From positions 27,105 to 91,104 of the forward strand of contig NW_022651115.1 in NCBI RefSeq assembly GCF_004027225.2: a stretch of DNA of 64,000 nt. Reading direction: 5' to 3'. Origin of the DNA: Strigops habroptila (taxonomy: Eukaryota; Chordata; Aves; Psittaciformes; Psittacidae). This document shows, one piece after another, positions 18,502-47,400 of the stretch. Position numbers and translations under genes: made by a program. Position 1 is the first letter of the stretch. The number at the start of each line of letters is the position of its first letter. The notes under the pieces are model-generated. The model had not been told where the DNA came from. It was given only the letters and a program-made list of their open reading frames with translations, and did no database searches.

Positions 18502-19000
18502 NNNNNNNNNNNNNNNNNNNNNNNNNNNNNNNNNNNNNNNNNNNNNNNNNNNNNNNNNNNNNNNNNNNNNNNNNNNNNNNNNNNNNNNNNNNNNNNNNNN
18601 NNNNNNNNNNNNNNNNNNNNNNNNNNNNNNNNNNNNNNNNNNNNNNNNNNNNNNNNNNNNNNNNNNNNNNNNNNNNNNNNNNNNNNNNNNNNNNNNNNNN
18701 NNNNNNNNNNNNNNNNNNNNNNNNNNNNNNNNNNNNNNNNNNNNNNNNNNNNNNNNNNNNNNNNNNNNNNNNNNNNNNNNNNNNNNNNNNNNNNNNNNNN
18801 NNNNNNNNNNNNNNNNNNNNNNNNNNNNNNNNNNNNNNNNNNNNNNNNNNNNNNNNNNNNNNNNNNNNNNNNNNNNNNNNNNNNNNNNNNNNNNNNNNNN
18901 NNNNNNNNNNNNNNNNNNNNNNNNNNNNNNNNNNNNNNNNNNNNNNNNNNNNNNNNNNNNNNNNNNNNNNNNNNNNNNNNNNNNNNNNNNNNNNNNNNNN
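18502..19000. other. Assembly gap (499 N)
   Basis: An unbroken run of N. It separates the 5' part of COL11A2 from a mid-protein exon of WDR46, so at least the COL11A2 signal-peptide exon, both promoters and several WDR46 exons are unplaced. Confidence 1.
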
Positions 19001-27556: not shown

Positions 27557-29238
27557 ATGGCCGAGCAGATCCAGAAGAAGCTTCAGGGAGAGTTGGAGAA
27601 ATACCAACAACTGCAGAAAGGTACCAAAAACCCTTCATGTGCACCCAAACCCCTTCATGTGCACCCAAAAACCCTTCATCTGCCCCCAAACCCCTTCATC
27701 TGCACCCAAAAACCCTTCATCTGCACCCAAACCCCTTTATCTGCACCCGAAAACCTTCATCTGCCCCCAAACCCTCCCTCTGCACCCCAAAATCACCCCT
27801 CTGCACCCCATAACCCCTCAGAACCCCCCTTCTCCCCCCTTTGCCCCCCAGTCCCCCTTTCCCATGGAGTGCCCATGTCAGTGCCATCACCCCGGGGTGG
27901 GGGGGCCCCTCTGACCCCCTGCTTTTGGGGTGTCCCCCCCCAGACCTGAGCCGGGCCGTGGCGGCGCGGCAGAAGCTGGAGGCTCAACTGACCGAGAACA
28001 ACATCGTGAAGGAGGTGAGAAACCCCCAAACCCCCCTAAAACACCCCAAAACCACCCCAAACCCCCCTAAAACACCCCCAAACCACCCCAAAACCCCCTA
28101 AAACACCCCCAAACCACCCCAAAACCACCTAAAACACCCCCAAAACCTCCTAAACCACCCAAACTCACCCCTAAAACACCCCCAAAACCCTCTAAACACC
28201 CAACCCCCCCAAACACCCCTAAAACACTACTAAACCACCCCTAAACACCCCTAAAACACCCCAACCCCCCCAAACACCCGCAAAACCCCCTAAAACACCA
28301 AAAAACCACCCAAAACCACCCATAAACCATCCCTAAATCCGCTAAAACGCCCCCAAACACCCCTAAAACACCAAAACCCCCCCAAAACACCCCTAAAACA
28401 CTCCTAAAACACCCCTAAACCCCCTAAATCACTCTTAAACTACTCCTAAAACACCCTACACCACCCCAACCCCCCCTAAAAGCCTCCAAAGCACCCCAAA
28501 AGCCCCCAAAACACCCTAAAAACTCCCAAAACTCCTGAAATACCCCCTAAAACACCCCGAAACCCCCCAATACACCCTAAAGCCCCCCCAACACTCCCCA
28601 AAAACCTGCCGAAAAACCCCAACACCCCCTAAAATTCCCCTAAAACCTGGCAAAACCCTTCAAAACCCCCCTAAAGCCCCCTAAAACACCTCAAAAACCC
28701 CCTAAAACACCCCGCAAAACCCCTGAACCACCCCAAAAACCCCTCCTGGCCCCCCCCAGTGCCCAGGAGCTGGAGCTGCTGGATGCCACCAACACCAGCT
28801 TCAAAACACCCCTGAAACCCACCTAAAAGCCCCCAAAAACCCCCAAACCCAGCCCCAAAAATTCCCCAACCCCCCCCAAAAGCCTCTAACCCCCCCAAAC
28901 CCACTCTCGTGCCCCCCAACCCGCAGGAGCTGGAGCTGCTGGACGCCACCAACACCATCTTCAAGCTGATGGGGCCGGTGCTGGTGAAGCAGGAGATGGA
29001 GGAAGCCAAGGGCACGGTGGGGAAGCGCCTGGAGTACATCACCGGGGAGATGTGGGTGCAGGGGGGCGATGGGGGGGGGGGCACCCCCCGACACCCCTGG
29101 ATCCCCCCCGACGTTCCCTGATCCCGCAGCAAACGCTACGAGCAGCAGATGCAGGAGCTGGAGCGACGCTCGGAGCAGCAGCGGGAGACGCTGGGGCGGC
29201 TGCAGCAGGAGCTGCAGAGGGGCCAGGGCAAGGGCTGA
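27557..29238 (+). CDS. PFDN6: Prefoldin subunit 6
   Basis: This is a beta-type subunit of hexameric prefoldin, the cytosolic co-chaperone that hands nascent actin and tubulin to the CCT chaperonin. Coding exons are 27557-27620, 27944-28014, 28927-29051 and 29130-29238 (122 residues; human about 129). The product opens MAEQIQKKLQGELEKYQQLQ and contains KLEAQLTENNIVKE, LELLDATNTIFKLMGPVLVK, GKRLEYITGEIKRYE and a C-terminal coiled coil with SEQQRETLGRLQQELQ, so both coiled-coil arms and the beta-hairpin core are present. The start has a good context (GCCATGG). A truncated copy of exon 3 lies in the intron before it. The gene is divergent from B3GALT4. Confidence 0.96.
28015..28755. repeat. AACCCCCTAAAACACCCC-type minisatellite, PFDN6 intron
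   Basis: A 740-bp C/A-rich array on the coding strand fills most of the intron between PFDN6 exons 2 and 3. It ends at the partial exon duplicate. Confidence 0.93.
28758..28805 (+). pseudogene. Truncated duplicate of PFDN6 exon 3
   Basis: Sequence from GGAGCTGGAGCTGCTGGATG to CACCAGCTTCAA matches the start of the real exon at 28927 with only a few changes (GGA-C to T, ATC to AGC), then runs into C/A repeat. It has a CAG just upstream but no matching donor, so it is probably a non-functional duplicate carried by repeat expansion. Confidence 0.8.
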
Positions 29239-29421
29239 GGGGGGGCCTCTGTGGGGACCCCCCCCATGGGGATCCCCCCTATGAGGACACCCCATTTATG
29301 GGGTCATTTCTGTGGGGACACCCCATTTATGGGGATAGCTCTATAGGGGCACCTCCCTATGGGGACATTTCTATAGGGACACCCCATTTATGGGGACCCC
29401 CCCCAGCCCCTATAATCCTTT

Positions 29422-29427
29422 AATAAA
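29422..29427 (+). terminator. Polyadenylation signal AATAAA, PFDN6
   Basis: A canonical hexamer 184 bp after the PFDN6 stop, followed by a T/G-rich stretch. Confidence 0.85.
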
Positions 29428-29459
29428 GGGTTAAAGCTGTTACTGACATGAGGGGTGTT

Positions 29460-29695
29460 GAGTTGGGGGGGTTGTGAGTGTGGGGACATGTTACATGCGT
29501 GTGGGGACGTGTTACATGCGTGTGGAGACGTGTGGGGACATGTCGTGTATGGGGGGCATGTTACATGTGTGTGGGGACATGTTAGGTGTACGGGGACGTA
29601 TTATGTGTGTGTGGGGACACATCACGTGTGTGTGGGGATGTGTCACGTGTGGGGACGTGTGTGTGCAGGGACAGGCTGGGGTGGGTCACTGGGGG
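29460..29695. repeat. GTGTGGGGACATGTTACATG-type repeat
   Basis: A degenerate tandem array directly downstream of PFDN6. Confidence 0.8.
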
Positions 29696-29714
29696 GGGAC
29701 ACTGCGATGTGCCA

Positions 29715-30515
29715 GCCCCCATGTCCCATATCCCCATGTCCTAGATCCCCATGTCCCACGTCCCATATCCGCATGTTCCCAATCCTAGATCTCCATATCC
29801 CATATCCCCATGTCCCCATATCCTAGATCCCCATATCCTAGATCCCCATATCCACATGTCTGCATATCCTAGATCCCCATGTCCCATGTCCCCATATCCT
29901 AGACCCTATATCCCATGTCCCATATCTGCATGTCCCCATATCCTAGACCCCATATCCCATGTCCCATATCCGCATGTCCCCATATCCTAGATCTCTATAT
30001 CCGCATGTCCCCATATCTTAGACCCCATATCCCATGTCCCATATCTGCATGTCCTCATATCCTAGATCCCCATAGCCACATGTCCCCATATCCACATGTC
30101 CCCATATCCCATATCCCATATCCACATGTCCCCATATCCCATGTCCCATATCCACATGTCCCCATATCCTAGATCCCCATAGCCACATGTCCCCATATCC
30201 GCATGTCCCCATATCCCATGTCCCATATCCACATGTCCCCGTATCCTAGATCCCCATATCCGCATGTCCCCATATCCACATGTCCCCATATCCTAGATCC
30301 CCATATCCTAGATCCCCATATCCACATGTCCCCATATCCCATGTCCCATATCCACATGTCCCCATATCCTAGATCCCCATATCCACATGTCCCCATATCC
30401 CATGTCCCATATCCACATGTCCCCATATCCTAGATCCCCATATCCACATGTCCCCATATCCCATGTCCCATATCCACATGTCCCCATATCCTAGATCCCC
30501 ATGTCCCATATCCCC
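29715..30515. repeat. CCATATCCTAGATCCCCATATCCACATGT-type minisatellite
   Basis: An 800-bp array built from CCATATCC, CTAGATCC and CACATGTC sub-units, with higher-order repeats of about 60 bp (for example 30290-30490). It is intergenic with no gene inside. Confidence 0.95.
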
Positions 30516-33800: not shown

Positions 33801-34807
33801 CATACATAACCTGTAAAACTGCTTTAGTTCCAAGTTACCATCATGTGTTACCGTCACGTATCTGGAAAAGATGGTCATTCCCTCTGCTCCTGCTGAAGTG
33901 TGTTTAGAAGAGATCCCAAGCAAGGATGGCTTTGTCCAAATAACCAGTGTTATTAGTTTGGGACCATTTTATTCACTGGAGAGGCTTCTAAAGAAACGTA
34001 TTGGGAATCTGATGGGAGATGGAAAGGGCTTTGCTGATGTTTATTGGGACTTGAATGCTTGTGGTGGAAGGGGAACAAGAAAGAAGTTGTCACGTAGTTG
34101 CATGAGCTGAAGAAAGTGAGATGGTGCTTAGTAACTTGGAAAGGACTTTGAATCCTTCAAGTTTGTTCTGAAGGAAGTTTCATTGCTCTCTTTGGTTAAA
34201 AGACAGGTTTCTGTCAGCCTGGGAAAAGCATTTCTAAATGTTGAAGGAGCTGGTAACCCCGTGATTTGAAGCGTGGCACCTATCTACCTTCCCTTTCCCA
34301 GCAGTTCATCCGTTTGTTCTGGTCAAGCTTTGCCCTGGGACTTGCAAGCGATGTCCAGAGATGTCCGATCTGCCTCGCAATGATTTCTCTCTGTACTGGA
34401 AATGCAGAGGAGCGGCCGCTGCAGGTTGTAAGGGTTGCACTGGTAAGGCACGTTTTGTCCTGGTCGGTTGGAGGCTGAGTTGGGAGGAGGCAAACAGATG
34501 GAGTGATTGCTCATGAGCAAGAAAAGGGCTGATAACACCTCCTGTTCAAGGAGCTGCAAACAAGCTGAGGAATGGGGTTTTTTGATGGCAGATCCTTGTG
34601 TTGCTTTGGGTTTGATGCTGTGTTGTTTGAGGCTTCCTCTACTCTAGTTCTAGCTCTTTCCACAGAGCACACGGTGTAATGAAACGTGAAGGCTTGTGCT
34701 CTTTCCTAAACTGTTTAAATGACTTACTTAACATTGGATTTTACTGAGTGTGTCAGGACTGGAGACACACCATGAGGGAGAAATAGACTGGAATAGGAAG
34801 GAATAGA
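30871..34807. other. Intergenic sequence, no gene recognised
   Basis: About 3.9 kb of more balanced base composition. It holds a degenerate element present three times (GTGGTGGCACCATTGCGGAG near 30997, GTGGTGGCACCATCCCAGAG near 31187, GGTGCTGGCACCGTTCCGGA near 31879), an inverted pair GGGGAAACTGAGGCA / TGCCTCAGTTTCCC (about 32990 and 33314), and a short TA tract. The open frames are short and show no conserved domain I recognise. The roughly 60 bp before 34808 may be part of the retroviral insertion but does not match the other LTR. Confidence 0.6.
33128..33195. repeat. (TA)n tract with flanking inverted TATATACC
   Basis: CATATATATACCACCAG, a run of about eleven TA, then CTATATACCAGCAGGTATAT. 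It is a simple AT microsatellite able to extrude a hairpin. Confidence 0.85.
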
Positions 34808-35082
34808 CCTGCCCACGACCACCAGGAGGCACTGCGCAAGCGCAGAACATATGGAAATGACTTTTGTACTCATTATAATACGAAGCGGGGATAGGTCATG
34901 AATATGTATCAGCATAGTGGGAAAGGTGATGCATATGTAATACTTTACAGGATAAATTGTGAGCACGTTGTAACGGTCTTCGGAACCAGATTTGGGTGCG
35001 TACCCCTGGTTCCCGGGGCCTCGAAATAAAGCACCACATATAACCTCCTTAGAGTGGTTATGTGTTCTTCTCTCGGCTAACA
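34808..35082 (+). repeat. 5' LTR, U3-truncated
   Basis: Matches 39828-40102 at every position I compared, including an AATAAA at 35025-35030 and the terminal GGCTAACA. The first roughly 328 bp of the LTR present on the 3' side are absent. The left junction passes directly into unrelated sequence (AATAGACCTGCC). Confidence 0.93.
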
Positions 35083-35478
35083 GTTTTGGCGATTCTGGTG
35101 GGACCTCGCGGGCATTGCTGAGGCGGCTCGCGCATCGATCCAGCTCCAGCCGGCACCGAGTGATTCTCGGGGAGCCATCGACCGCGACCGACCTCCGGTG
35201 CTCTCGACGGACCAACGGCATTGGTAAGAGACGGTGCTTTATTATTTGATATTGGTACCATTTCCTGGTCTGGTAAAAGCCTGCCTGTTAGACACGGCGA
35301 AAGCTGTGCGTGGTTGGGCAACAGAGCTCCAAAGGAAAGCCTAGGCGCCGTCCGTCAGGCAGTGGCGAAAGCCCTGCAGGTTCAGCAACAGCGGTCTGGT
35401 CTGGTAAATTGGTTCGGTATATTTTTATATTTTGTAATTTAGTTTGTCTGTATTTGTCTGTATTTAAATAAGCTCAGA
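35083..35478 (+). other. Retroviral leader with primer-binding-site-like sequence
   Basis: TGGCGATTCTGGTGGGAC at 35087-35104 begins four bases after the LTR end with the TGG expected of a tRNA 3'-CCA complement. I cannot assign the tRNA with confidence. The rest is non-coding leader before the gag ATG. Confidence 0.6.
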
Positions 35479-35884
35479 ATGCCACCGATACCAAAGTCGT
35501 CGCCGTTAGGGTGTATTTTGAGTCATTGGAAGGAGGGACGGTTTGGACAAGAGACGCAAAAAGGGAAATTGATTGATTACTGTGATGTGTGGTGGATGCA
35601 ATATAAATTAGAGGATCAAGTCCGCTGGCCGGAGAATGGAACTTTAGATTATGATACGATTATGCAATTAATGTTATTTTGTAAACGGGAAGGAAAATGG
35701 GACGAGGTCCCATATGTGGAACTGTTCTTTATGTTAAGAGACAACGATGAATGGAGAAAGGCGTGTGGAATAATGGTTGTTAGTGCAAAATCGAGTGAAC
35801 AATGTAAAGGCTGTGTGGGTGAGAAGAAATGTATGGGATGCATGGCTGTGAATAATGTTTTGCTTTCCGGACCTTGTGGAGAAG
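35479..35884 (+). pseudogene. gag remnant (matrix-like N-terminus only)
   Basis: An ATG-initiated frame of about 135 viral-looking codons contains a Trp-rich, charged helical pattern (LSHWKEGRF, DYCDVWWMQY, REGKWDEVPYVELFF) of the type found in gammaretrovirus-related bird ERVs; that family link is from memory. Capsid and nucleocapsid motifs are absent. The frame runs on into the GC-rich block and stops at 36087. Confidence 0.7.
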
Positions 35885-36431
35885 GTACGGCGCGGCAGGA
35901 GGAACGGGGCGACTTTCAGGGCGCAGCCTTTACCGGCGGCAGCCCCCCACCTTGCCGCCCAGTCCCGCCGTGCTCCGCCGGGACACGCGGTGGCGGGTGC
36001 GCCCAGGGACACGCCGCCGGGATGGAAAAACGCCCGAGCGGCTGCGGCGCGGTGAAGTCCCGCGACCGGTTTGCATTTTCCCATTGAAAGCGCCGGGGAT
36101 GCCCGGTGTTGCCGGTGGGGAAGAGGGGAGGTAAACACAGAGGCGACCGCGGCGCGGGAGGCGCCGTCCGGCGGTGTGACAATCGCCCGCCGGTGTTGCA
36201 TCAGTCTGCGCCCCGCTATCGGGGCGGGGGGGGATGTGTCGGGAGGGCGCGGCGGTGCCGGTAGCTCCGCCGTGTCCGCGGCGTTCGGAGCGGGCCGTGG
36301 CAGCGGCAGCGCTCACGTCCCGTGCCCCGTCCCACACACACCGCGCCCCCCCCCCAACCCCGCCGCGGGTCCCACCTTTGTCCGCGCGCGCCCCCCCCGC
36401 CCCGCGCGCCTGGGCCACGTGACGTGGGTAT
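35885..36431 (+). other. CpG-rich segment of apparently non-retroviral origin inside the ERV
   Basis: About 550 bp with dense CpG, in sharp contrast to the AT-rich viral sequence on both sides. It has CpG-island character (multiple GCGC/CCGCGG, GCCACGTGACGT near 36412) and no recognisable gag, protease or RT coding. Viral pol sequence resumes at AAG 36432 (KVSREKAQ). No open frame inside resembles a known protein. Borders are estimates, good to about 10 bp. Confidence 0.75.
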
Positions 36432-37958
36432 AAGGTTTCGAGGGAGAAAGCCCAGATTGCCTGCACTACTGTAATGTATTTGGGCTGTGAAATCTCCCAG
36501 GGACAACGGAGGTTGGGAATTGATCGTATTTGTGCTATTCCAGAGCCTCGGAATTTACATGAACTGAGAACATTCCTTGGAATGGCGGGTTGGTGCAGGT
36601 TATGGATATCGGACTATGCACTGATAGCTAAACCTTTATATGAGGCACAGAAATCTCAGACCTTCGTTTGGGAAGGGTCCCAAAAGGAAGCTTTTAAAAA
36701 GCTAAAAGAAGCGTTAATAAAAGCACCCGCCCTGGGATTACCGGATTTAACCAAGGACTTCCAGCTGTTTGTGCACGAGAGACAGAGATTGGCATTGGGA
36801 GTCCTGACGCAGAGACTGGGAAGCTGGAAGCGACCAGTGGGATACTTCTCCAAACAGCTGGATCTGGTAAGTGCTGGATGGCCATCGTGCCTACGAGCAG
36901 TAGCAGCAACAGTGACATTAATACAAGAAGCAAGAAAATTGACCTTAGGAAAACATATTGATGTATATGTGCCACACATGGTAATGACTGTTTTAGAACA
37001 AAAAGGGGGGTACTGGCTATCCCCAAGTCGGATGATGAAATACCAGGCGGTATTAACTGAACAAGATGATGTGACTCTAAAGACAACTAACCTGTTGAAC
37101 CCAGCAGCTTTTCTAGGTACAAATACAGAGGACGGCATATTAGAACACGATTGTGGGGAGACGATTGAATATACATATGCGACGAGGGCTGATTTGAAGG
37201 ATGCCTCACTTGAGCAACCTGATGAGGAACTTTTTACTGATGGAAGCAGTTTTGTGGAAGGTGGGGTCCGTTATGCTGGATATGCAGTAACCACACAAAA
37301 CGCCCTAATAGAAGCAAAAGCTCTGCCCCCAGGGACTTCAGCACAACGGGCAGAGATAATAGCTCTCACCAGAGCTTTAGAACTGAGCAAAGGGAAGCGG
37401 GTAAATATATGGACAGATTTGAAATATGCATTCGGTGTGGTCCATATACACGGAGCTCTATGGAAGGAACGAGGGCTCCTGTCCTCACAAGGGACAAACA
37501 TAAAATACCAAGAGGAAATTCTGAATTTAATAACTGCTGTGCAATTACCAGAACAGGTGGCTATCATGCACTGTAAAGCGCATCAAGGAGGAAATTCTAA
37601 GATAGCCGAAGGAAATACATTTGCGGATCGGATGGCTAGACGAATTGCACGACAGGTACAGACTGTTATGGCCCTGGTACCAACAAAGGTGAGCCCATTA
37701 CAGAATTATATGAACAAAAAACCAGGATATTCAGAAGAAGATGTTAAATTGGCTGAATTAGTAAAGGCTCGATTGAACTCGGAAGGATGGTACGTAACCA
37801 CTACTGGACAAGTGGTGGTACCACCTGCCATCATGCGGACAATTTTACAAACCGAACATCAAAAATGTCATTGGGGGGGCAGAGGCATTGGTAACATATT
37901 TAAAACGAGGAATGATCTCTACACGGATGTTAACAATGGCAAAATCCATAGGATCTAA
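36432..37958 (+). pseudogene. pol remnant: RT thumb/connection, RNase H, start of integrase
   Basis: The frame is open from 36432 to a stop at 37956-37958. It begins in the RT thumb/connection (YLGCEISQGQRRLG, LRTFLGMAGWCRLW), so the RT catalytic YXDD region is missing. RNase H follows with its acidic residues visible (FTDGSSF, AEIIALTRALELS, WTDLKYAFGV, NTFADRMAR). The zinc-binding start of integrase (EHQKCHW) then breaks off. It is a pseudogene, not an active polymerase. Confidence 0.88.
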
Positions 37959-37984
37959 ATGTGAAATTTGTTTAAAAAAACAAT

Positions 37985-38398
37985 CCAGTAGTCAAGAGGA
38001 AAGTAGAAATGGGACATATCAGAGTAGGTATGGAGCCGGGTGACTATTGGCAAATTGATTTTGTGGAATTACCCAAGACACAGGGATACCGATACTTGTT
38101 AGTAGGGGTTGACACTTTTTCTGGATGGCCAGAAGCCTCTCCCTGTCGCACCAATCACGCTAAGGAAACAGTGAAATGGTTGTTGAAAGAGATCATCCCT
38201 AGATTCGGAGTCCCGTTGGGTATATCATCAGATAGAGGACCGCATTTTACAGCAACTATAGTTCAGGAAGTCAGTGAACTGTTAGGAATATCCTGGAATC
38301 TTCATACCCCATGGAGGCCACAGTCCAGTGGACAGGTGGAAAAGATGAATCAAACAATTAAACACATCTTGGTGTCTCAGGTGGACAGGGAAATATAA
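37985..38398 (+). pseudogene. Integrase catalytic-core remnant
   Basis: After a frame break the integrase core appears: the first Asp in YWQIDFVEL, the second in SSDRGPHF and the Glu in GQVEKMNQ. The catalytic triad residues are thus recognisable, but the zinc-finger domain lies in another frame and the C-terminal domain is deleted at about 38395, where env sequence begins. Confidence 0.85.
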
Positions 38399-38401
38399 TA
38401 T

Positions 38402-39455
38402 AGCAGGAAATATGAACCTGTTGTCATTAAACAGAGTCAGTCTAGATACTGTTAAAAATGTTCCTTGGTGGAATTGCACCAGGATAATAGATTGCGATAC
38501 TGATCCAGAAAACATTGCAATGCCCCCAATTAGAATTGCTTTAAAAGCAGGATGTGCATGCCGAGGATTTAAAGTTGGAGGAAAAACGATACAAGCCCCG
38601 GCTGATGGAATAAACTGCAGATATTTGATGATACATAGCATGGGACATCTTGTTTGGGCACTCAGTGATGGTACCTGGACCACCCACCTTCCAATAACAG
38701 GGCCAGTGCGGGAAATTACCTTGGGACTCCCCACTTTGTGTCCAATTTGGAAGCGTTCCCCATTCAGGGGCAAACTAGAAACTTTGCAGATTTGAACCAA
38801 AAGAAGTGTTGATGATGACATTGACAATATAGATGACACTTGGCAAGAGCCTGAGACAGGAGTGAAAGCAGGATGGGCACTCAAATCCCTTTTTGCTCAA
38901 ATAGCTGCATATCGCAATAGGGAAGTGATTTATAATTTAATTGGACAAACTGAGAGATTGGCCAAGGTGACTAAAAAAGGCTTTATGGATCTAAATTTGC
39001 AATTACAGGCGACAACCAAAATGACTCTGCAGAACAGAATGGCATTAGACACATTGCTGTTAAAGGAACATGGTGTTTGTGGATATCTCAAAGATAGAAT
39101 CGATCACTGCTGTGTACATATACCAAACGTAACTGCAGATATAGAATATGACATTGCTCAATTAGGGAAAATTGAAAAGGAAGCTGAAAAGGAAAAAGAA
39201 GAAATAAGTCAAAATTGGGTAGGAGCATTATTTGATGGATTGGGAATCCACCTTACTGGATGGATTCATTCCCTCATAGAGACAGTGTTTACTCTATTAC
39301 TTGTGTTCCTCGCAATCTATGTGGTATATTTTTGTATTCGAAGAGAAATAACCCGGAATACCAGTTGGACACATAAAATCATTGGAGCAGTGACTCGAGA
39401 ATATCCACGACACCCAATAACTCCTCCTCTTACCTATCAGGAAACTACTACATGA
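38402..39455 (+). pseudogene. env remnant (partial surface subunit and transmembrane subunit, frameshifted)
   Basis: 38412-38795 holds the end of a cysteine-containing surface-subunit-like frame. From about 38800 a second frame encodes a transmembrane subunit: a heptad-rich helix, a Cys...CysCys motif (CGYLKDRIDHCC), and a hydrophobic membrane span near 39280-39335 followed by a short cytoplasmic tail stopping at 39453-39455. A frameshift separates the two, most of the surface subunit is deleted, and no fusion-competent product can be made. Confidence 0.8.
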
Positions 39456-39487
39456 GTGAAAACACTTGCAAAAGATGAAGTATTTTC

Positions 39488-39499
39488 AAAGGGGGGAAA
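39488..39499 (+). other. Polypurine tract
   Basis: AAAGGGGGGAAA directly before the 3' LTR, where plus-strand priming takes place in retroviruses. Confidence 0.85.
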
Positions 39500-40102
39500 T
39501 GTTAGATATATAGAATAATTAGACTTGTGATTTGCTTGATTTATGTTCCGTTAAGCCTGTTGCTAAGCCAGAGAAGTTTGGTAACTAGGATGTGGACATA
39601 GATATATGAGACTATCCAAGCGAAACAGTACTCCCCAGATTACTTCAAAGCAGAACCTTTAAGATAAGAAATGAAGATGCATACCAGTACCAGTCAGAGA
39701 GAGATAAGGAGAATGCTGGTGCAAGCACCATCGTTGGAACCTATCCAGGACTCGAAAGGTGAAAAGTACACAGCGAGGAAGACGTCTTACTTCATCTGAG
39801 GAAGACTGCTTACTTCATCTTGAGACCCCTGCCCACGACCACCAGGAGGCACTGCGCAAGCGCAGAACATATGGAAATGACTTTTGTACTCATTATAATA
39901 CGAAGCGGGGATAGGTCATGAATATGTATCAGCATAGTGGGAAAGGTGATGCATATGTAATACTTTACAGGATAAATTGTGAGCACGTTGTAACGGTCTT
40001 CGGAACCAGATTTGGGTGCGTACCCCTGGTTCCCGGGGCCTCGAAATAAAGCACCACATATAACCTCCTTAGAGTGGTTATGTGTTCTTCTCTCGGCTAA
40101 CA
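39500..40102 (+). repeat. 3' LTR, complete (603 bp)
   Basis: Starts TGTTAG and ends CTAACA, a perfect 6-bp inverted terminal repeat with the TG...CA signature. It contains AATAAA at 40045-40050 and a TTATAAT at about 39894 that could act as a TATA box. Its last 275 bp equal the 5' LTR fragment. Confidence 0.93.
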
Positions 40103-42039
40103 AAGCTGTGAGATTAAAGCCAATGCGGTTTAGAACAGACAAATGCGTGGATGCACCGGGGAAGGAAATTACCACTTTCTTGTTCTGCTCCACCCTTCAA
40201 AAAGAGAAGAGGGCTTAAAAAACCTTAAAATTCCTCCCACCACTTGAAATTTTACAGCAATATTCAAACGCCATAATCAGTTTGGGTGAAAAGATGAAAA
40301 GGAATAACCAAGTGATGGGAAGGGATGGATGATGCGGCGGGGCGGTGTGGAGAGGGAGAGTCGGCTGGGGTTGAGGTGTCTGTAGCCCTGCAATCGATCG
40401 ATGGAATGTCTGAACGTATGCTCTGGGCTGTGGGAGTTCCCAGACTGTTTCCCTTGAAATGGAAGCAATTAAATCTTTAATAATGAAAGAGCAAACTGCA
40501 AACGGGACCCTCCGGCAGAGCAACGGGGCTGCGGTCCCGGGGGCAGACGCACACGCTCGCGTGACAACTGGGGCCATTAAAGAGTGCCAAGTGAGTTTTG
40601 GCGGTGGGTAGGAGCCCTTATTATGGTGGAAGGCATTAATATGGGAAGGAAAAAAGGGGGTGGAAGAATTGGCTGGTGACAAGGTGACGTGGGGCAGAGG
40701 AGCAGGGTCATTTTGCAGCCGTTCCAGCTACCTACTTCATTGCAAGGCAATGAGCCCGTTTAGTTTCGCAGGGATTTCAGCCCGACGTGTTTCGGAAGCA
40801 TATTAAAGTTGATAAAAGTGTCACTTCACTAACTTAGCATCCAGGATGCTGCTTAACTGCAATCTGAGCTGTTCTCTACTCACTCAGTTTGCTCTGTGGC
40901 TTTGCATTTGCAGCACAAAGTGGTGTTTTGCATACAGGTTCTCCTTTTTTTGATAAGAGTTTCTTCTTAGGGGTGTTTAAAATCTCAGCACTTGGTTTCC
41001 TCTCCATAGTCTTTGGGTGTGGGAAGCGTAAAACAGCATTAAAGGGTTATGGGAGCACTGACTGACCATTTAGGGAGCTCTGGGCCTCTACATTCAGTCT
41101 TCTCATGTGCCCTGTTGAACGCTGGTGCCAGACAGTGCCATGATCTTGCTGAGCACAAGAGATTCTAGCAGAGAGCTGTCACGGTTCCCCACCTCTATAA
41201 CGGAACTTAACTGGTGCAAAGGGTCTCGCAAGGTGCTACAAGTTGTGTAGAAGTTCCTGTGTTAGTATTGATGCACTAGACCTGTATTTCCAACTCTCTG
41301 AAGTTCAGTTTCCGTGCGCATCCCAACGCGAGGACAAATGACTTGTGAAATGCAATTTGGATCCGTGAAATACACAGTTCGCCCCCAGCACCTCTGCAGG
41401 CAGAGCTGAGCTCCAAGCACATCAACAAGCCCAGGGCCTCCTCCTCACCTCTCCCCTGCTCCTCCAGCTGGGATGGCACCAGCACATCTCCTGACAGCTT
41501 CTCCTCCCTTTAGAGCACGCACCCACAACGTGTTTCAAGCGAACACTAAAGCAGGATTGAAAAGTCAAAGAACACGTACCTGGATGCGCAGGGCAGCCAG
41601 GGGAGGTGCAGCCTCCCCAGGGAGGGGTCTCCTCTGCACTGGTTCCTGCAGGGCTCTCGCTCCTTAAATAGCCCACACTCACCGGGGGGGCCCCCGTCAC
41701 AATGGGCATCTCCACAGGGACCACCACAGCTTTGGGATGGCGGCAGCATCGTGCCCATGGCCACTGGGCACCCAGGGCTTGGGATGATGCTGGTGGATCT
41801 GAGTGGTCCTACAGGTCATAGAATCAACTAGGTTGGAAAAGACCTTTAGGATCATAAAGTTCAATGATGGTTGCCCTGAGTGGTCCCACAGATGTTGCTG
41901 GTGGCCATAGGTGATCCCACAGATAATGCTGGGTGGGTCTTGGGGTGGTGCTGGTGGCTATGGGTGATCCCAGCGATGGTGCTGGTGGCCCTGGGTAGTC
42001 CTACTACCCTAAAACCCATCTGGTACCCCCAAACCCAAC
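40103..42039. other. Intergenic sequence, no gene recognised
   Basis: Unique sequence of mixed composition to about 41800, then a CR1 tail and degenerate GGTGATCCCACAGATGATGC-like repeats. Open frames are under 110 codons with no domain I recognise. A TTAAATAG at about 41665 and several splice-like signals are not enough to propose a gene. Confidence 0.55.
41818..41878 (-). mobile_element. CR1 3'-tail fragment
   Basis: ATAGAATCAACTAGGTTGGA, then AAAGACCTTTAGGATCATAA: the typical inverted CR1 3' end. Confidence 0.85.
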
Positions 42040-42545
42040 AAGGGCCAGGAATCTCCATGTGTCCCAGCACCCCTGGTGCCCCTAAACCATCCCCAAACCC
42101 ACCCAGTGCCCCCCAAGCCCAGGCATCACCATCCCTCCCAACCCACCTGTGGCACCCTGGTACACTTGAAGCACCCAAACCCCCACCTGGTACCCCCAAA
42201 TGCACCCAGCCCCAGGCACCTGCATTGCTGCCAGTGCCCAGGGTACCCCTAAACCACCCTGGAACACACGTGGTGCACCAAAACCCAACCAACCCAGGCA
42301 TCTCCATCCCTCCCAGCACCCCTGGTACCCCAAAACCACCCAAACCCCACTTAGTGCCCCCCAACCCATGTAACCCCCAGCATTTCCATCCTTCACAGCA
42401 CCCCTGGTACCCCAAAACCACCCAAACCCCACTTAGTGCCCCCCAACCCATGACACCCCCAGCATCTCCATCCTTCACAGCACCCCTGGTACCCCAAAAC
42501 CACCCAAACCCCACTCAGTGCCCCCCAACCCATCTGACCCCCTTA
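42040..42545. repeat. Minisatellite (CCCTGGTACCCCAAAACCAC units)
   Basis: Units of about 60-110 bp containing CTGGTACCCC, CCAAACCCCACTTAGTGCCC and CAGCATCTCCATCCTTCACA. It runs up to the acceptor-like sequence of the candidate exon at 42557. Confidence 0.9.
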
Positions 42546-42556
42546 AAACGCCGCAG

Positions 42557-42669
42557 ATGGAGCTGGAGGGATGGGATGGATCCAGAGGGACCTGGACACC
42601 CTTGGGGTGCTCAGCGCCAGCCTCATGGAGCTCAACCAAGCCAAGCGCAAGGTCCTGCCCCTGGAGTGA
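42557..42669 (+). CDS. Candidate terminal exon of an unidentified gene
   Basis: A pyrimidine-containing stretch ending CGCCGCAG is followed by a phase-1-entry frame of 36 codons plus stop: GAGGMGWIQRDLDTLGVLSA and then SLMELNQAKRKVLPLE. Heptad-like hydrophobics suggest a helical C-terminus. It is a rare non-repetitive island between two minisatellites, and its composition is unlike them. I do not recognise the family and cannot see upstream exons; they may be short, off in the repeats, or absent. It could also be a chance frame or an exon relic. Confidence 0.3.
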
Positions 42670-43668
42670 CTGGGAGGGTGCTGGGGGCAACTGGGATGCA
42701 CTGGGAGCAAGTGGGACTGCACTGAAGGTGGCTGGGGTCACGCTGTGGGCAACTGGAGGTGACTGGGGGGGGGTGCAGAGGGCACAGTGGGAGGAACTGG
42801 GATCACTGGGTGGAACTGGGAATGACTGGGAGCATGCTGGGGGCAACTGGGGTGTGCTGGGGGCAACCGGGGCTGTGATGGCAGCAACTGGGAGTGACTG
42901 AAGGTGACTGGGTCCTCACTGGGGGCAACTGGGATATACTGGGGTCATACTGGGATATACTGGGGTCATACTGGGATCTACGAGGTCATACTGGGATCAC
43001 ACTGGGGTCACTGGGATCGCATTGGGGTCATACTGGGATGACCCTTGGGTCACACTGGGATCTTCTGGGGTCATACTGGGATGTACTGGGACATAGTGGG
43101 GTCATGCTGGGATATCTTAAGGATGCACTGGGGTCATACAGGGATCACACTGGTGTCATACTGGGATGTACTGGGATCACACTGGGGTCATACTGGGATA
43201 TACTGTGATCACACTGGTGTCATACTGGGCCACGCTGGGATATGCTAAGAGTATACCTGGGTCATAGTGGGATATACTGGGACATACTGGGATCACCCGG
43301 TGGTCATACTGAGATATACTGGCTCATACAGGAATCGCCCTGGGATCCCACTGGGATGTACTGGGACACACTGGGGTTGTATGGGGCCACGCTGAGATAC
43401 CGGACACACTGGGATATACCTGGACATACTGGGGTGATACTGGGATCACACTGGGATATACTGGGATGCACTGGTATCTGACTGGGTTATACTGGGGTCG
43501 CTCTGGGTTCACACTGGGATATACTGGGATCACACTGGGGCACACTGAGGGCACACTGAGATATACTGGAATATACTGGGATACACTGGGGATATACTGG
43601 GATATACTGGGATATACTGGGGACACACTGGGATATACTGGAACACACTGGGCTGGGCTGTGAGGGGC
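42670..43668. repeat. ACTGGGATATACTGGGGTCAT-type minisatellite
   Basis: A 1-kb array of 9-12-bp units (ACTGGGATCAC, ACTGGGGTCAT, ACTGGGATATA) on the 5' side of CENPA, with no gene inside. Confidence 0.94.
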
Positions 43669-44278
43669 ACTCAGCACCCAGCCAGGCCGTGCGGGGCTCA
43701 GCACCATCCGGGCCGTGCTGTGTGCTCAGCACCATCCGAGCCGTGTGGGGAGCTCAGCACCATCCAGGCCGTGCCATGTGCTCAGCACCATCCGAGCCGT
43801 GCCATGTGCTCAGCACCATCCGGGCCGTGCGGGGCTCAGCACCATCCAGGCCGTGCGGGGCGCTCAGCACCATCCGGGCTGTGCCGTGTGCGCAGCATCA
43901 TCCGGGCCGTGCGGGGCTCAGCACCATCCAGGCCGTGCAGGGCTCAGCACCATCCGGGCTGTGAGGGGCGCTCAGCACCATCTGGGCTGTGCCATCTGCT
44001 CAGCACCATCCGGGCTGTGCGGGGCGCTCAGCACCATCCGGGCCGTGCCATGTGCTCAGCACCCATCCGGGCTGTGCAGGGCTCAGCACCATCCGGGCTG
44101 TGCAGGGCGCTCAGCACCATCCGGGCCGTGCCGTGTGCTCAGCACCATCCAGGCTCTTCGATGGGCTCAGCATCCATCCGGGCTGTGTGGGGCGTTCAGC
44201 ACCATCCGGGCCGTGCGGGGCGCTCAGCACCATCCGGGCCGTGCGGGACGCTCAGCACCATCCGGGCTCCGGAGTCGC
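43669..44278. repeat. CTCAGCACCATCCGGGCCGTG-type minisatellite
   Basis: About 20 units of 27-33 bp, CpG-containing, ending about 210 bp before the CENPA ATG. Plus-strand frames of 250-290 codons here are repeat artefacts. Confidence 0.95.
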
Positions 44279-44289
44279 TCCGGGGTCAC

Positions 44290-44488
44290 TCCGGGTCTCC
44301 AGTACCATCGAGTCGCGGCCTCCGGCGGTGCAGAGCGGCCGCGCGGGCGCCCATTGGCTGTTTTGGGGGGGGGAGCGGAAGTGACGTTCGGAGCGGCGCG
44401 GCGCGGCGGGAGGTTTGAATCGCGCGGCGGCGGTTCGGGGGTCCCGCGCGTGACGGGACGAGGGGGCTTTGTGACGTCACTCAGCGCC
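44290..44488 (+). promoter_or_regulatory. CENPA promoter with CCAAT, ETS/CRE-like, CDE/CHR and palindromic CRE sites
   Basis: CpG-rich, no TATA box. An inverted CCAAT (ATTGG 44353-44357) is followed by GCGGAAGTGACG (ETS/CRE-like, about 44375-44386), then GGCGG at 44405-44409, four bases, and TTTGAA at 44414-44419, the spacing of a CDE/CHR tandem. A perfect TGACGTCA lies at 44472-44479, ten bases before the ATG. CDE/CHR and NF-Y sites are known to drive G2/M-phase genes; use here is inferred. Confidence 0.65.
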
Positions 44489-47400
44489 ATGGCCCGGCCC
44501 AAGCCTCGCGCCCCCCGGCGCAGGAGACCCCCCGAGGCCCCGCCCCCCCCTCCCGAGCCCCCGCGGCGCCGCCGTGAGTGACCCCACAGGGACCCATAGC
44601 GACCCACCGCGACCCATAGAGACCCCATAGAGACCCACCGCGATCAATAGAGACCCCAGAGAGACCCATAGACACCCATGGAGACCCCACTGGGACCCAC
44701 CGCGACCCATAGAGACCCCATAGAGACCTCACCGCGACCCACAGGGACACATAAAGACCCCATAGAGACCCCACCGCGACCCATAGAGACCCATGGAGAC
44801 CCCACTGGGACCCACCGCGACCCATAGGGACCCATAGAGACCCCATAGAGACCCAATAGAGACCCCACCGCGACCCATAGGGACCCATAGAGACCATAGA
44901 GACCCCACTGGGACCTATAGAGACCTCATAGAGACCCCACTGGGACCCATAGGGACCCATAGAGATCCCACTGGGACTAATAGAGACCCATAGAGACCAT
45001 AGGGACCGATAGAGACCCCACTGGGACCCATAGGGACCCATAGAGACCCCATAGAGCCCCCCATGGAGACCCCCCATGGATACCCCCTCCACCCCACCAC
45101 GTACCCTCCCATAGACACCCCCAATGGGATCCCCCCATGGACACCCCCCATAACCATCACCTCTATGGACCTGCCCCCGGCGATCCAGCCCTGCCCCTCT
45201 CCCAGCCCTAGAGATCCCCCCTGCGCCCTATAGAGCCTCCCCCACCCCATAGATCCCTCCCTGCACCCCACAGCTCCATCCTCCCCATCCCCCCCCCCAT
45301 GCTGGTGGCCTCTGACTCTGTCCCCTTGTCCCCTCTTGTCCCCCCATGTCCCCATGTCCCCCCATGTCCCCCGTGTCCCCCCCATGTCCCCATGTTCCCA
45401 TGTCTCCCCATGTCCCCCTGTGCCCCTCATGTCCCCCCATGTCCCCATGTCCCCATGTCCCCCGTGTCCCCCCGTGTCCCGCAGGGTTCCGTCCCGGGCA
45501 GCGGGTGCTGCAGGAGATCCGGCGGTACCAGAGCAGCACCCGGCTGCTGCTGCGCCCCGCGCCCTTCGCCCGCCTGGTGAGACCCCAAACCACCCCCAAA
45601 CCCCCCCACAACCCCCCCAAACCACCCCCAAAACCCCCCCAAACCCCCCAAGCCTCCCAAAACACCCCCAAAACAGCCCCAAACACCCCCAAACCCCTCC
45701 ACACCCCCCAAAACCCCCCCAAAACCCCCCCAAGCCCCCCAAAACACCCCCAAAACAGCCCCAAACACCCCCAACCCCCTCCACACCCCCCCAAAACCCC
45801 CCCAAAACCCCCCCAACCCCCCCCACAACCCTCCCAAACCACCCCCAAAACCCCCCCAAGCCCCCTCCACAACCCCCCCAAAACCCCCCCAACCCCCCCA
45901 AACCAGCCACAAACGCCCCCAAAACACCCCTAACCCCCCCAAAACCCCCAATCCTCCCAACCCCCCCAAAACAACCCCAAACCAGCCCCAAACACCCCCA
46001 AAACACCTCCCAACCCATGTCCCCATGTCCCCCCATTGCCCTCCATGTCCCCCCATGCCCCCCCCATGTCCCCCGTTTCCCCCTTGTCCCCCCACATCCC
46101 CTTGTTCCCTCATGTCCCCATGTCCCCCATGTCCCCCCATATCCCCCCATGTCCCCCATGCCTCCCATGTCCCCCCATGCCCCCCATGCCCCCCAATGCC
46201 CCCCATGCTCCCCATGCCCCCCATGTCCCCATGTCCCCCATACCCCCAATGCCCCCCATGATCCCCATGCCCCCCATGCCCCCCATATCCCCCCATGTCC
46301 CCATGCCCCCCCATGTCCCCATGTCCCCCATGTCCCCATGCCCCCCCATGTCCCCATGCCCCCCATGTCCCCCCATTTCCCTGTCCCCATGCCCCCCATG
46401 TCCATACCCCCATGTCCCCATGCCCCCCCATGTCCCCATGCCCCCCATGTCCCCCATATCCCCCCATGTCCCCATGCCCCCCATGTCCCCCCATGCCCCC
46501 CATGTCCCCCATATCCTCCCATGCCCCCCATGTCCCCAGGTGCGGGAGATCTGTCTCATCTTCACCCGTGGGGTGGATTACCGGTGGCAGAGCATGGCCC
46601 TGATGGCCCTGCAGGAGGTGGGTGCTGGGGGTCCCATGGGTGCTTGGGGGGCAGTGGGGGGGCTCTCATGGGTGCTGGGGAAGGGTGGGTTAGGGTCTCA
46701 TGGCCCGGTTTGGGGTGTTTTGGGGGTCCCACGGGGTGTTTCAGGATGGGTTTGGGGTTGGCATTGGGGTGTTTTGGGGTGGTTTGGGGGTTCCAGGGGG
46801 TGTTTTCATGTGTTTTGGGGCTCTCATTGTATGTTTTGGGGGCCTCGTGGTGTGTTTTGGGGTGATTTGGGGGGTGTTTGATGTGGGTTTGGGTCTCAAG
46901 GTGTATTTTGGGGTGGTTCAGGGTGTTTTGGCCATTGTTTTGGGGGTCTCTTGGTATGGTTTGGGGGTTCTGTGGGGTATCCTGCTTTATTTGGGGGGTC
47001 TCATGGGGTGGTTTGGGGTCTCCAGGTGTGTTTTGGGGTGTTTGGGGGTTGTTTTGGAGCTGTTTTGGAGGGGGTGGGGTGTTTCGGGATGGTTTTGTGG
47101 TTCCCTGGAGTTTTTGGGGTGTTTTGGGGGTGTTTTGGACCTGCTCGGGGGGGGGGTTGGGGTGTTTGGGGGTCTCCTGGGGTGTTTTGGGATGTGTCTG
47201 GGGCGTTTTGGGGGCCTCGCAGTGTGTTTTGGGGCATTTTGGGATGTTTCTGGGGTGTTTTGGAGTCTCACGGGGTGTTCTGTGGTGGTTTTGGGGTGTT
47301 CTGGGGTGTTTTGGGGTCTCGTGGGGTGTTCTAGGGTGGTTTTGGGGTGGTTTGGAGCTGTTTTGAGGTGGTTTTGGAGTGTTCTGGGGTGGTTTTGGGG

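Follow-up and report, generated by a model that had tools for sequence, protein, structure and literature searches.

An endogenous retrovirus (ERV) resembling gammaretroviruses captured part of the host gene SLC38A2 and carried it to at least 17 sites in the same genome, a reading of source and spread to which we assign a probability of about 0.85. One of these sites lies in the window, meaning the whole 64-kb stretch analysed here (C87:27105-91104 of its assembly). The initial annotation had described 35885-36431 as a CpG-rich, non-viral block inside a recent ERV, and the block is indeed a host segment. The window contains one defective ERV, composed in order of an LTR, a leader, MA, the block, a partial pol, a cut integrase, the C-terminal part of env, a polypurine tract and a second LTR. 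Its features are as follows.

34808..35082, plus strand: 5' LTR, last 275 bp only; 0/275 mismatches against the 3' LTR
35083..35478, plus strand: leader of the ERV (5' untranslated region); 16/16 other capture copies match it wholly or partly
35479..35861, plus strand: viral portion of the gag MA coding sequence; Pfam Gag_MA at E 4e-4, short of the gathering score
35862..35884, plus strand: captured 3' end of SLC38A2 exon 1; identical in the host locus (L018)
35884..35890, plus strand: SLC38A2 exon 1/intron 1 splice donor, G/GTACGG; GTACGG in 17/17 ERV copies and the host
35885..36426, plus strand: captured SLC38A2 intron 1 (CpG island), truncated here to its 5' part; placed by similarity to the host and the other copies
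36117..36131, plus strand: purine-rich motif GGGGAAGAGGGGAGG; exact in the host and 5/17 ERV copies
36178..36185, plus strand: CAAT-like motif GACAATCG; exact in the host (twice) and 4/17 ERV copies
36195..36204, minus strand: C/EBP-ATF (amino acid response) core, GTTGCATCAG on the plus strand and TGATGCAAC on the opposite one; identical in 17/17 ERV copies and the host
36425..36426, no strand: secondary deletion junction from host intron to RT thumb, about 2 bp of overlap; the viral match of the 16 other copies begins at 36425
36426..37958, plus strand: pol, RT thumb/connection and RNase H; Pfam RNase_H, E 8e-24
37976..38362, plus strand: integrase core, truncated; Pfam rve, E 7e-19
38349..39455, plus strand: env, C-terminal SU (38349-38795) and TM (38796-39455); TM matches Pfam TLV_coat, E 9.5e-8
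39488..39499, plus strand: polypurine tract AAAGGGGGGAAA
39500..40102, plus strand: 3' LTR, full length, 603 bp, TGTTAG...TAACA; the 3' LTRs of 15 other copies start at the same TGTTAGA

The 3' LTR opens with TGTTAGA directly after the polypurine tract, and a likely primer-binding site (TGGCGATTCTGGTGGGACC, 35087-35105) follows the 5' LTR. No target-site duplication was found for the window copy. Given this and the 275-bp 5' LTR, the left edge of the ERV at 34796-34830 has been lost or rearranged. After the block, pol reopens in frame at GYKVS. Its protein is 80% identical to a Pezoporus ERV pol protein, and its RT matches PDB entry 5dmq (RT/RNase H p80, E 1.6e-120) best, an enzyme that we take to be that of MLV; 3p1g, named XMRV, is also among the best PDB matches. 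The integrase is joined to env by an internal deletion that is also present in copy L004. The SU piece has no Pfam match and is named by position; co-linear matches in other copies put it next to TM. Class I (gammaretrovirus-like) features of the family comprise the 4-bp target duplication, the MLV-like RT and the gamma-type env TM (TLV_coat). An IMG/VR scan with pol gave 11 pattern matches with no relative among them, Rfam gave 0 matches over 34500-40300, and ARAGORN found 0 tRNAs in the window. Tandem repeats within 34000-41000 form short arrays only; dense ones flank the ERV at 28000-30500 and 42000-46000, on a contig that is small and GC-rich. The window also includes a 499-base N gap at 18502-19000.

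The composition of the block sets it apart from its surroundings. Its GC content is 0.748, with 82 CpGs and a CpG observed/expected ratio (o/e) of 1.07, against a GC content of 0.42 in MA and 0.45 in pol. Because CpG o/e also reaches 1.04 in the ERV MA and leader, the left edge is a jump in GC content and CpG density, not in CpG o/e. When two breakpoints are fitted to GC by maximum likelihood, they fall at 35888 and 36428 (log-likelihood gain 74). Judged against the host gene and capture-free ERV copies, host DNA extends from 35864 to 36425-36426, the right end being ambiguous, and the 'GC' at 35862-35863 is common to virus and host. On the right, host-like sequence runs through CACGTGACGTG, ending at 36426. 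The initial limits of 35885-36431 were thus accurate in their start, which is the first base of SLC38A2 intron 1 (AAG/GTACGG), and left 21-23 bases of exon 1 outside the left limit.

Other properties of the block agree with a non-coding CpG island. It lacks a TpG/CpA excess (o/e 1.05, versus 1.22-1.25 in the host flanks) and hence any sign of CpG decay; the ratio is also low in the ERV leader (0.98) and 3' LTR (1.09). Its trinucleotide profile lies at a distance of 0.33-0.50 from four other CpG islands of the window taken for comparison and farther, at 0.56-0.92, from the five remaining segments compared. No frame displays coding periodicity, GC1, GC2 and GC3 being nearly equal, and the six frames yield no Pfam match. 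Divergent gag, pro or pol sequence is rejected on the latter ground and on the peptide matches, which are weak and short (best E 0.010 in one-sequence searches of the six frames against 122 proteins). Host DNA local to the window is likewise rejected, as no significant match to the block occurs elsewhere in the window (best E 0.034). An IMG/VR scan with a 27-base piece of the block gave no match.

The source of the block was located by searching it against the window's own assembly (1,148,577,936 bases, 89 contigs), the check proposed in the initial annotation. The search returned 18 matches, and all 18 candidates were scored: the window, 16 other ERV copies (L002-L017) and a single non-ERV locus, L018 on C3. 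Counts from these genome searches are lower bounds. The 16 ERV copies match the full query at 95-97%, as they do the captured intron part of the window, and L018 matches query bases 1-529 at 92% with indels counted. Between the captured intron of the window and the host, 13/558 positions are substituted. Within the 3.5 kb examined around L018, ERV similarity is confined to the last 23 bases of the apparent MA. Downstream of the block, L018 continues with an intron ending CTCCGCAG, an ATG exon and further amino acid transporter exons, and a protein search with its concatenated exon peptides found 2,818 proteins. L018 is SLC38A2 (SNAT2), with the block as its intron 1 and 35862-35884 as the tail of its exon 1. 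A unique host CpG island, together with 16 other ERV copies sharing the 5' junction, bears out the earlier proposal that host DNA was transduced. As to the kind of host DNA, the suggestion of a promoter or first-exon segment survives in the exon 1 tail alone. A captured promoter or coding first exon is rejected: the piece starts in exon 1, consists almost entirely of intron 1 and has no coding periodicity. No ERV piece was found in 14.5 kb of the SLC38A2 locus, which leaves a resident provirus with read-through unsupported, although one could have been lost.

The junctions are shared. In each of the 17 ERV copies, MA meets exon 1 at one and the same 5' junction, preceded by LTR, leader and MA sequence (by an LTR end only in L006). 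The 16 copies besides the window also share the 3' junction, which lies in exon 2 and rejoins the virus at the same base. These copies hold the whole of intron 1 (657 bp in the host), the splice acceptor, the 5' untranslated part of exon 2 and the first 10 SLC38A2 codons. Their insert of 681-695 bp is sense-oriented and separates MA from the following gag segment, named p12 on position only. Substitution distances from ERV copies to the host are 1.7-4.1%, and six fixed substitutions and shared indels set all ERV copies apart from the host locus. The common junctions, fixed substitutions and indels point to a single capture event.

The site before capture is preserved in relatives. A genome search with MA gave 92 candidates, of which 40 were scored, so that at least 40 copies exist; the scored copies match at 94-100% and include all 17 with the capture. 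Since the block search found no further copies, the remaining 23 should be capture-free. In all five of these that were inspected, TTTTGC or TTCTGC is followed by other viral sequence where the window has the exon 1 tail, running straight into AACATCAG, the start of the next gag segment; the full landmark appears at the same 24-nt spacing in 4/5. Compared with these five, the capture is a pure insertion with no viral sequence lost. Virus and host share GC at the 5' end and CAACATC at the 3' end. The observed 3' junction, AACATTTCAG, is two bases longer than the empty site and therefore imperfectly templated. A protein search with MA found two relatives, neither with the junction.

Insertion interrupts gag. 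In all six copies with a located start codon (a fixed pattern located it in 6/17), the gag frame ends at a stop codon in the intron, after 190-223 nt of captured DNA. Capture-free relatives are present in the same genome, and their proteins probably mobilised the capture-bearing element, judging from this one broken frame. The splice donor is intact in 17/17 copies and the acceptor in all 16 that reach it. A genome search with exon 2 gave 16 ERV matches and one host match, adding no new places. As none of these 17 is an intron-less capture copy, there is no sign of reverse transcription of spliced genomes.

The spread of the capture family, to 17 sites or more, is very recent. Two measurable LTRs exist in 15/16 other copies, the exception being L006, where only LTR ends stand on each side in a short inverted and direct arrangement with no full LTRs (L041, L025). 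Pooled over the 15 pairs, LTRs differ at 22/10,297 aligned bases and seven pairs are identical, as expected of the recent element described initially. With rates of 1.9-4e-9 substitutions per site per year, an assumption of our own, these differences correspond to about 0.27-0.56 million years. Matching target duplications flank 14 of the 15 copies, being 4 bp long in 13 and an ambiguous CACACA within a CA repeat in L015; L005 has none. Among the 40 scored MA copies, 16 lie on C25 (37.4 Mb), which represents 3.3% of the assembly. This excess would be consistent with ERVs finding refuge on a W chromosome, C25 being a candidate W only.

Internal deletions differ among copies, and the same integrase-to-TM deletion recurs in 8/16. 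This group is a further reduced element that expanded very recently as a sub-burst. Its members are L007, L009-L013, L015 and L016 (with L026, L028-L032, L034 and L035); their LTRs are longer, at 715-741 bp, and the two LTRs of a pair differ at 0 or 1 base.

The window copy derives from a later event, a deletion that fused mid-intron 1 sequence (after CACGTGACGTG) to the RT thumb and took with it the remaining captured DNA along with most of gag, the protease and most of RT. The initial annotation correctly placed the block where the end of gag, the protease and most of RT should stand, with pol resuming in an open frame. Its further suggestion that this viral sequence was exchanged for host DNA in the capture does not hold, as the loss followed by later deletion and is absent from the 16 other copies and the five capture-free ones. 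The integrase-to-env deletion of the window has an unbroken match in L004 only (1/16; six are partial and nine lack it), and the unbroken match to 38349-38362 lies in L023, downstream of L004. In the tree of captured segments, the window stands apart from L004, with supports of 0.94-0.98 on the intervening branches. An L004-like deletion combined with a captured segment that does not group with L004 makes the window copy a mosaic and suggests recombination between ERV copies.

The cargo raises the question of function. Its ATF4-type motif, TGATGCAAC, fits TGATGMMAH and is present in all 17 ERV copies and the host. The purine-rich motif GGGGAAGAGGGGAGG is, on our assumption, part of the SNAT2 tripartite unit, and GACAATCG presumably represents a CAAT-like motif with a role near the response core. 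As stated in the excerpts available, TGATGMMAH is the consensus of the ATF4 response core (PMC3763548), and in mammals SLC38A2 intron 1 contains a tripartite domain that ATF4 activates when amino acids are scarce (PMC6456927, PMC4375474, PMC5808304). The SNAT2 core is given as ATTGCATCA in the excerpt of PMC3006201; the bird core TGATGCAAC lies one base from it, in the same sense-strand orientation in which that source writes it.

On these grounds, the captured intron is predicted to be capable of acting as an internal stress enhancer for the ERV, a prediction that we regard as tentative and rather unlikely. A broader proposal, to which we give slightly less credence, is that the captured SLC38A2 enhancer with its ATF4 site would have conferred transcription induced by nutrient stress and so driven the recent spread despite the broken gag. 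The likelier account treats the captured intron as a neutral passenger of a lineage that spread through good packaging or copying while the motif lay idle, which is compatible with capture by template switching. Two observations argue against a passenger: the longest run invariant over the 17 copies and the host (42 bp) spans the response core, and the gag-breaking insert is retained, never spliced, in all 16 ERV copies of the exon 2 search. However, such a run has P ~0.05 at the given position and P ~0.52 anywhere, so the conservation of the core is weak statistical evidence, and 31.8% of 10-bp stretches are equally invariant across copies. Erosion of the accompanying motifs, intact in 5/17 (purine-rich) and 4/17 (CAAT-like) copies, also favours a passenger. 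The same is true of the loose consensus, which is common in this DNA, with seven occurrences on both strands of the 64-kb window and five in the 14.5 kb of the SLC38A2 locus; for the captured 565 bp the expectation is about 0.06. One of the five is an exact TGATGCAAT in SLC38A2 intron 2 (L019/L020, C3), just upstream of exon 3, in the other orientation and outside the capture. The ERV LTR itself contains no response motif.

As the route of acquisition, we favour template switching by reverse transcriptase onto SLC38A2 pre-mRNA. The enzyme of a gammaretrovirus-like ERV would leave the viral RNA at CAACATC just past MA and switch to an unspliced SLC38A2 transcript at the identical heptamer in exon 2. 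It would then copy back via exon 2, intron 1 in full and the terminal bases of exon 1 before returning to the viral RNA at the GC beside its departure point, a step read from the junctions. We infer an RNA intermediate because of the microhomology, the sense orientation and the later spread. Such a near-exact return is unusual for template switching and counts against the proposed route.

Alternatively, the SLC38A2 piece may have entered one provirus at the DNA level, for example as filler in microhomology-mediated break repair, and then been retrotransposed. This would account for a pure insertion without viral loss, for microhomologies of 2 and 7 bases and for a captured piece that is genomic, intron included, and similar junctions would be expected if it preceded the spread. 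On the other hand, the sense orientation and a position wholly inside the transcribed unit fit an RNA template, and the seven shared bases where the minus strand would first have switched are in keeping with reverse transcription. None of these points is decisive, and we consider DNA-level insertion unlikely. A chimera of the assembly, which the small contig (164,872 bp) with its N gap at 18502-19000 and the truncated 5' LTR might suggest, is very improbable in view of the same 5' junction at 16 other loci on eight other contigs and of the separate target duplications at 14/15 measurable other loci. Those 16 copies equally dispose of a one-off post-integration insertion, the other alternative raised initially. 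The secondary junction of the window at 36425-36426 is the sole junction unsupported elsewhere and the sole one explicable by assembly error.

Retroviral captures of host genes usually come to notice once a protein has been selected for. Here, the cargo is putatively regulatory and is unspliced, and it would thus provide a natural test of pre-mRNA entry into virions and of the one-step gain of a stress-responsive enhancer. The host source, the empty site, the filled sites and a later deletion derivative occur in one genome, with microhomologies at both junctions, which renders the steps of capture unusually readable. Among the open-access matches listed, none reports capture of SLC38A2 or an ERV with a captured amino acid response element. 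The excerpt of PMC8498563 covers ERVs, ATF4 and the response element, without linking them as here.

Several known systems invite comparison. Like the mammalian SNAT2 intron 1 response domain, the captured bird intron carries a response core, TGATGCAAC; unlike ATTGCATCA as excerpted from PMC3006201, it differs at one base and belongs to an element that is putative in birds and in the ERV. Chicken ENS-1/ERNI (Soprano) is similarly an avian family of ERVs, present in many copies and with LTRs that are regulatory; the excerpts describe no host-derived non-coding capture in it (PMC3362752, PMC3958431). It was considered by description only as the identity of the window ERV and was dropped once genome copies explained the block.

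Most acute transforming retroviruses are replication-defective and require a helper, according to the excerpt of PMC4276931. As in those viruses, host sequence with a cellular counterpart stands in the provirus in sense orientation and breaks a viral gene. Unlike them, the present ERV carries no oncogene, its cargo being an unspliced first intron, otherwise non-coding apart from 10 SLC38A2 codons; no viral sequence was replaced at capture, and the result is a multi-copy germline family. The capture works like classical retroviral transduction and lacks two features of acute transforming viruses, the oncoprotein and the viral loss. The nearest germline cases found are crocodilian, where, as excerpted, captured mRNAs with conserved open frames encode KIT-ligand in CrocERV29 and nectin3 in CrocERV31 (PMC4299795). 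These are also germline ERV lineages that captured host sequence and then multiplied, and in CrocERV29 KIT-ligand was captured without loss of a viral domain. In contrast to both, the cargo described here is non-coding and has kept its intron.
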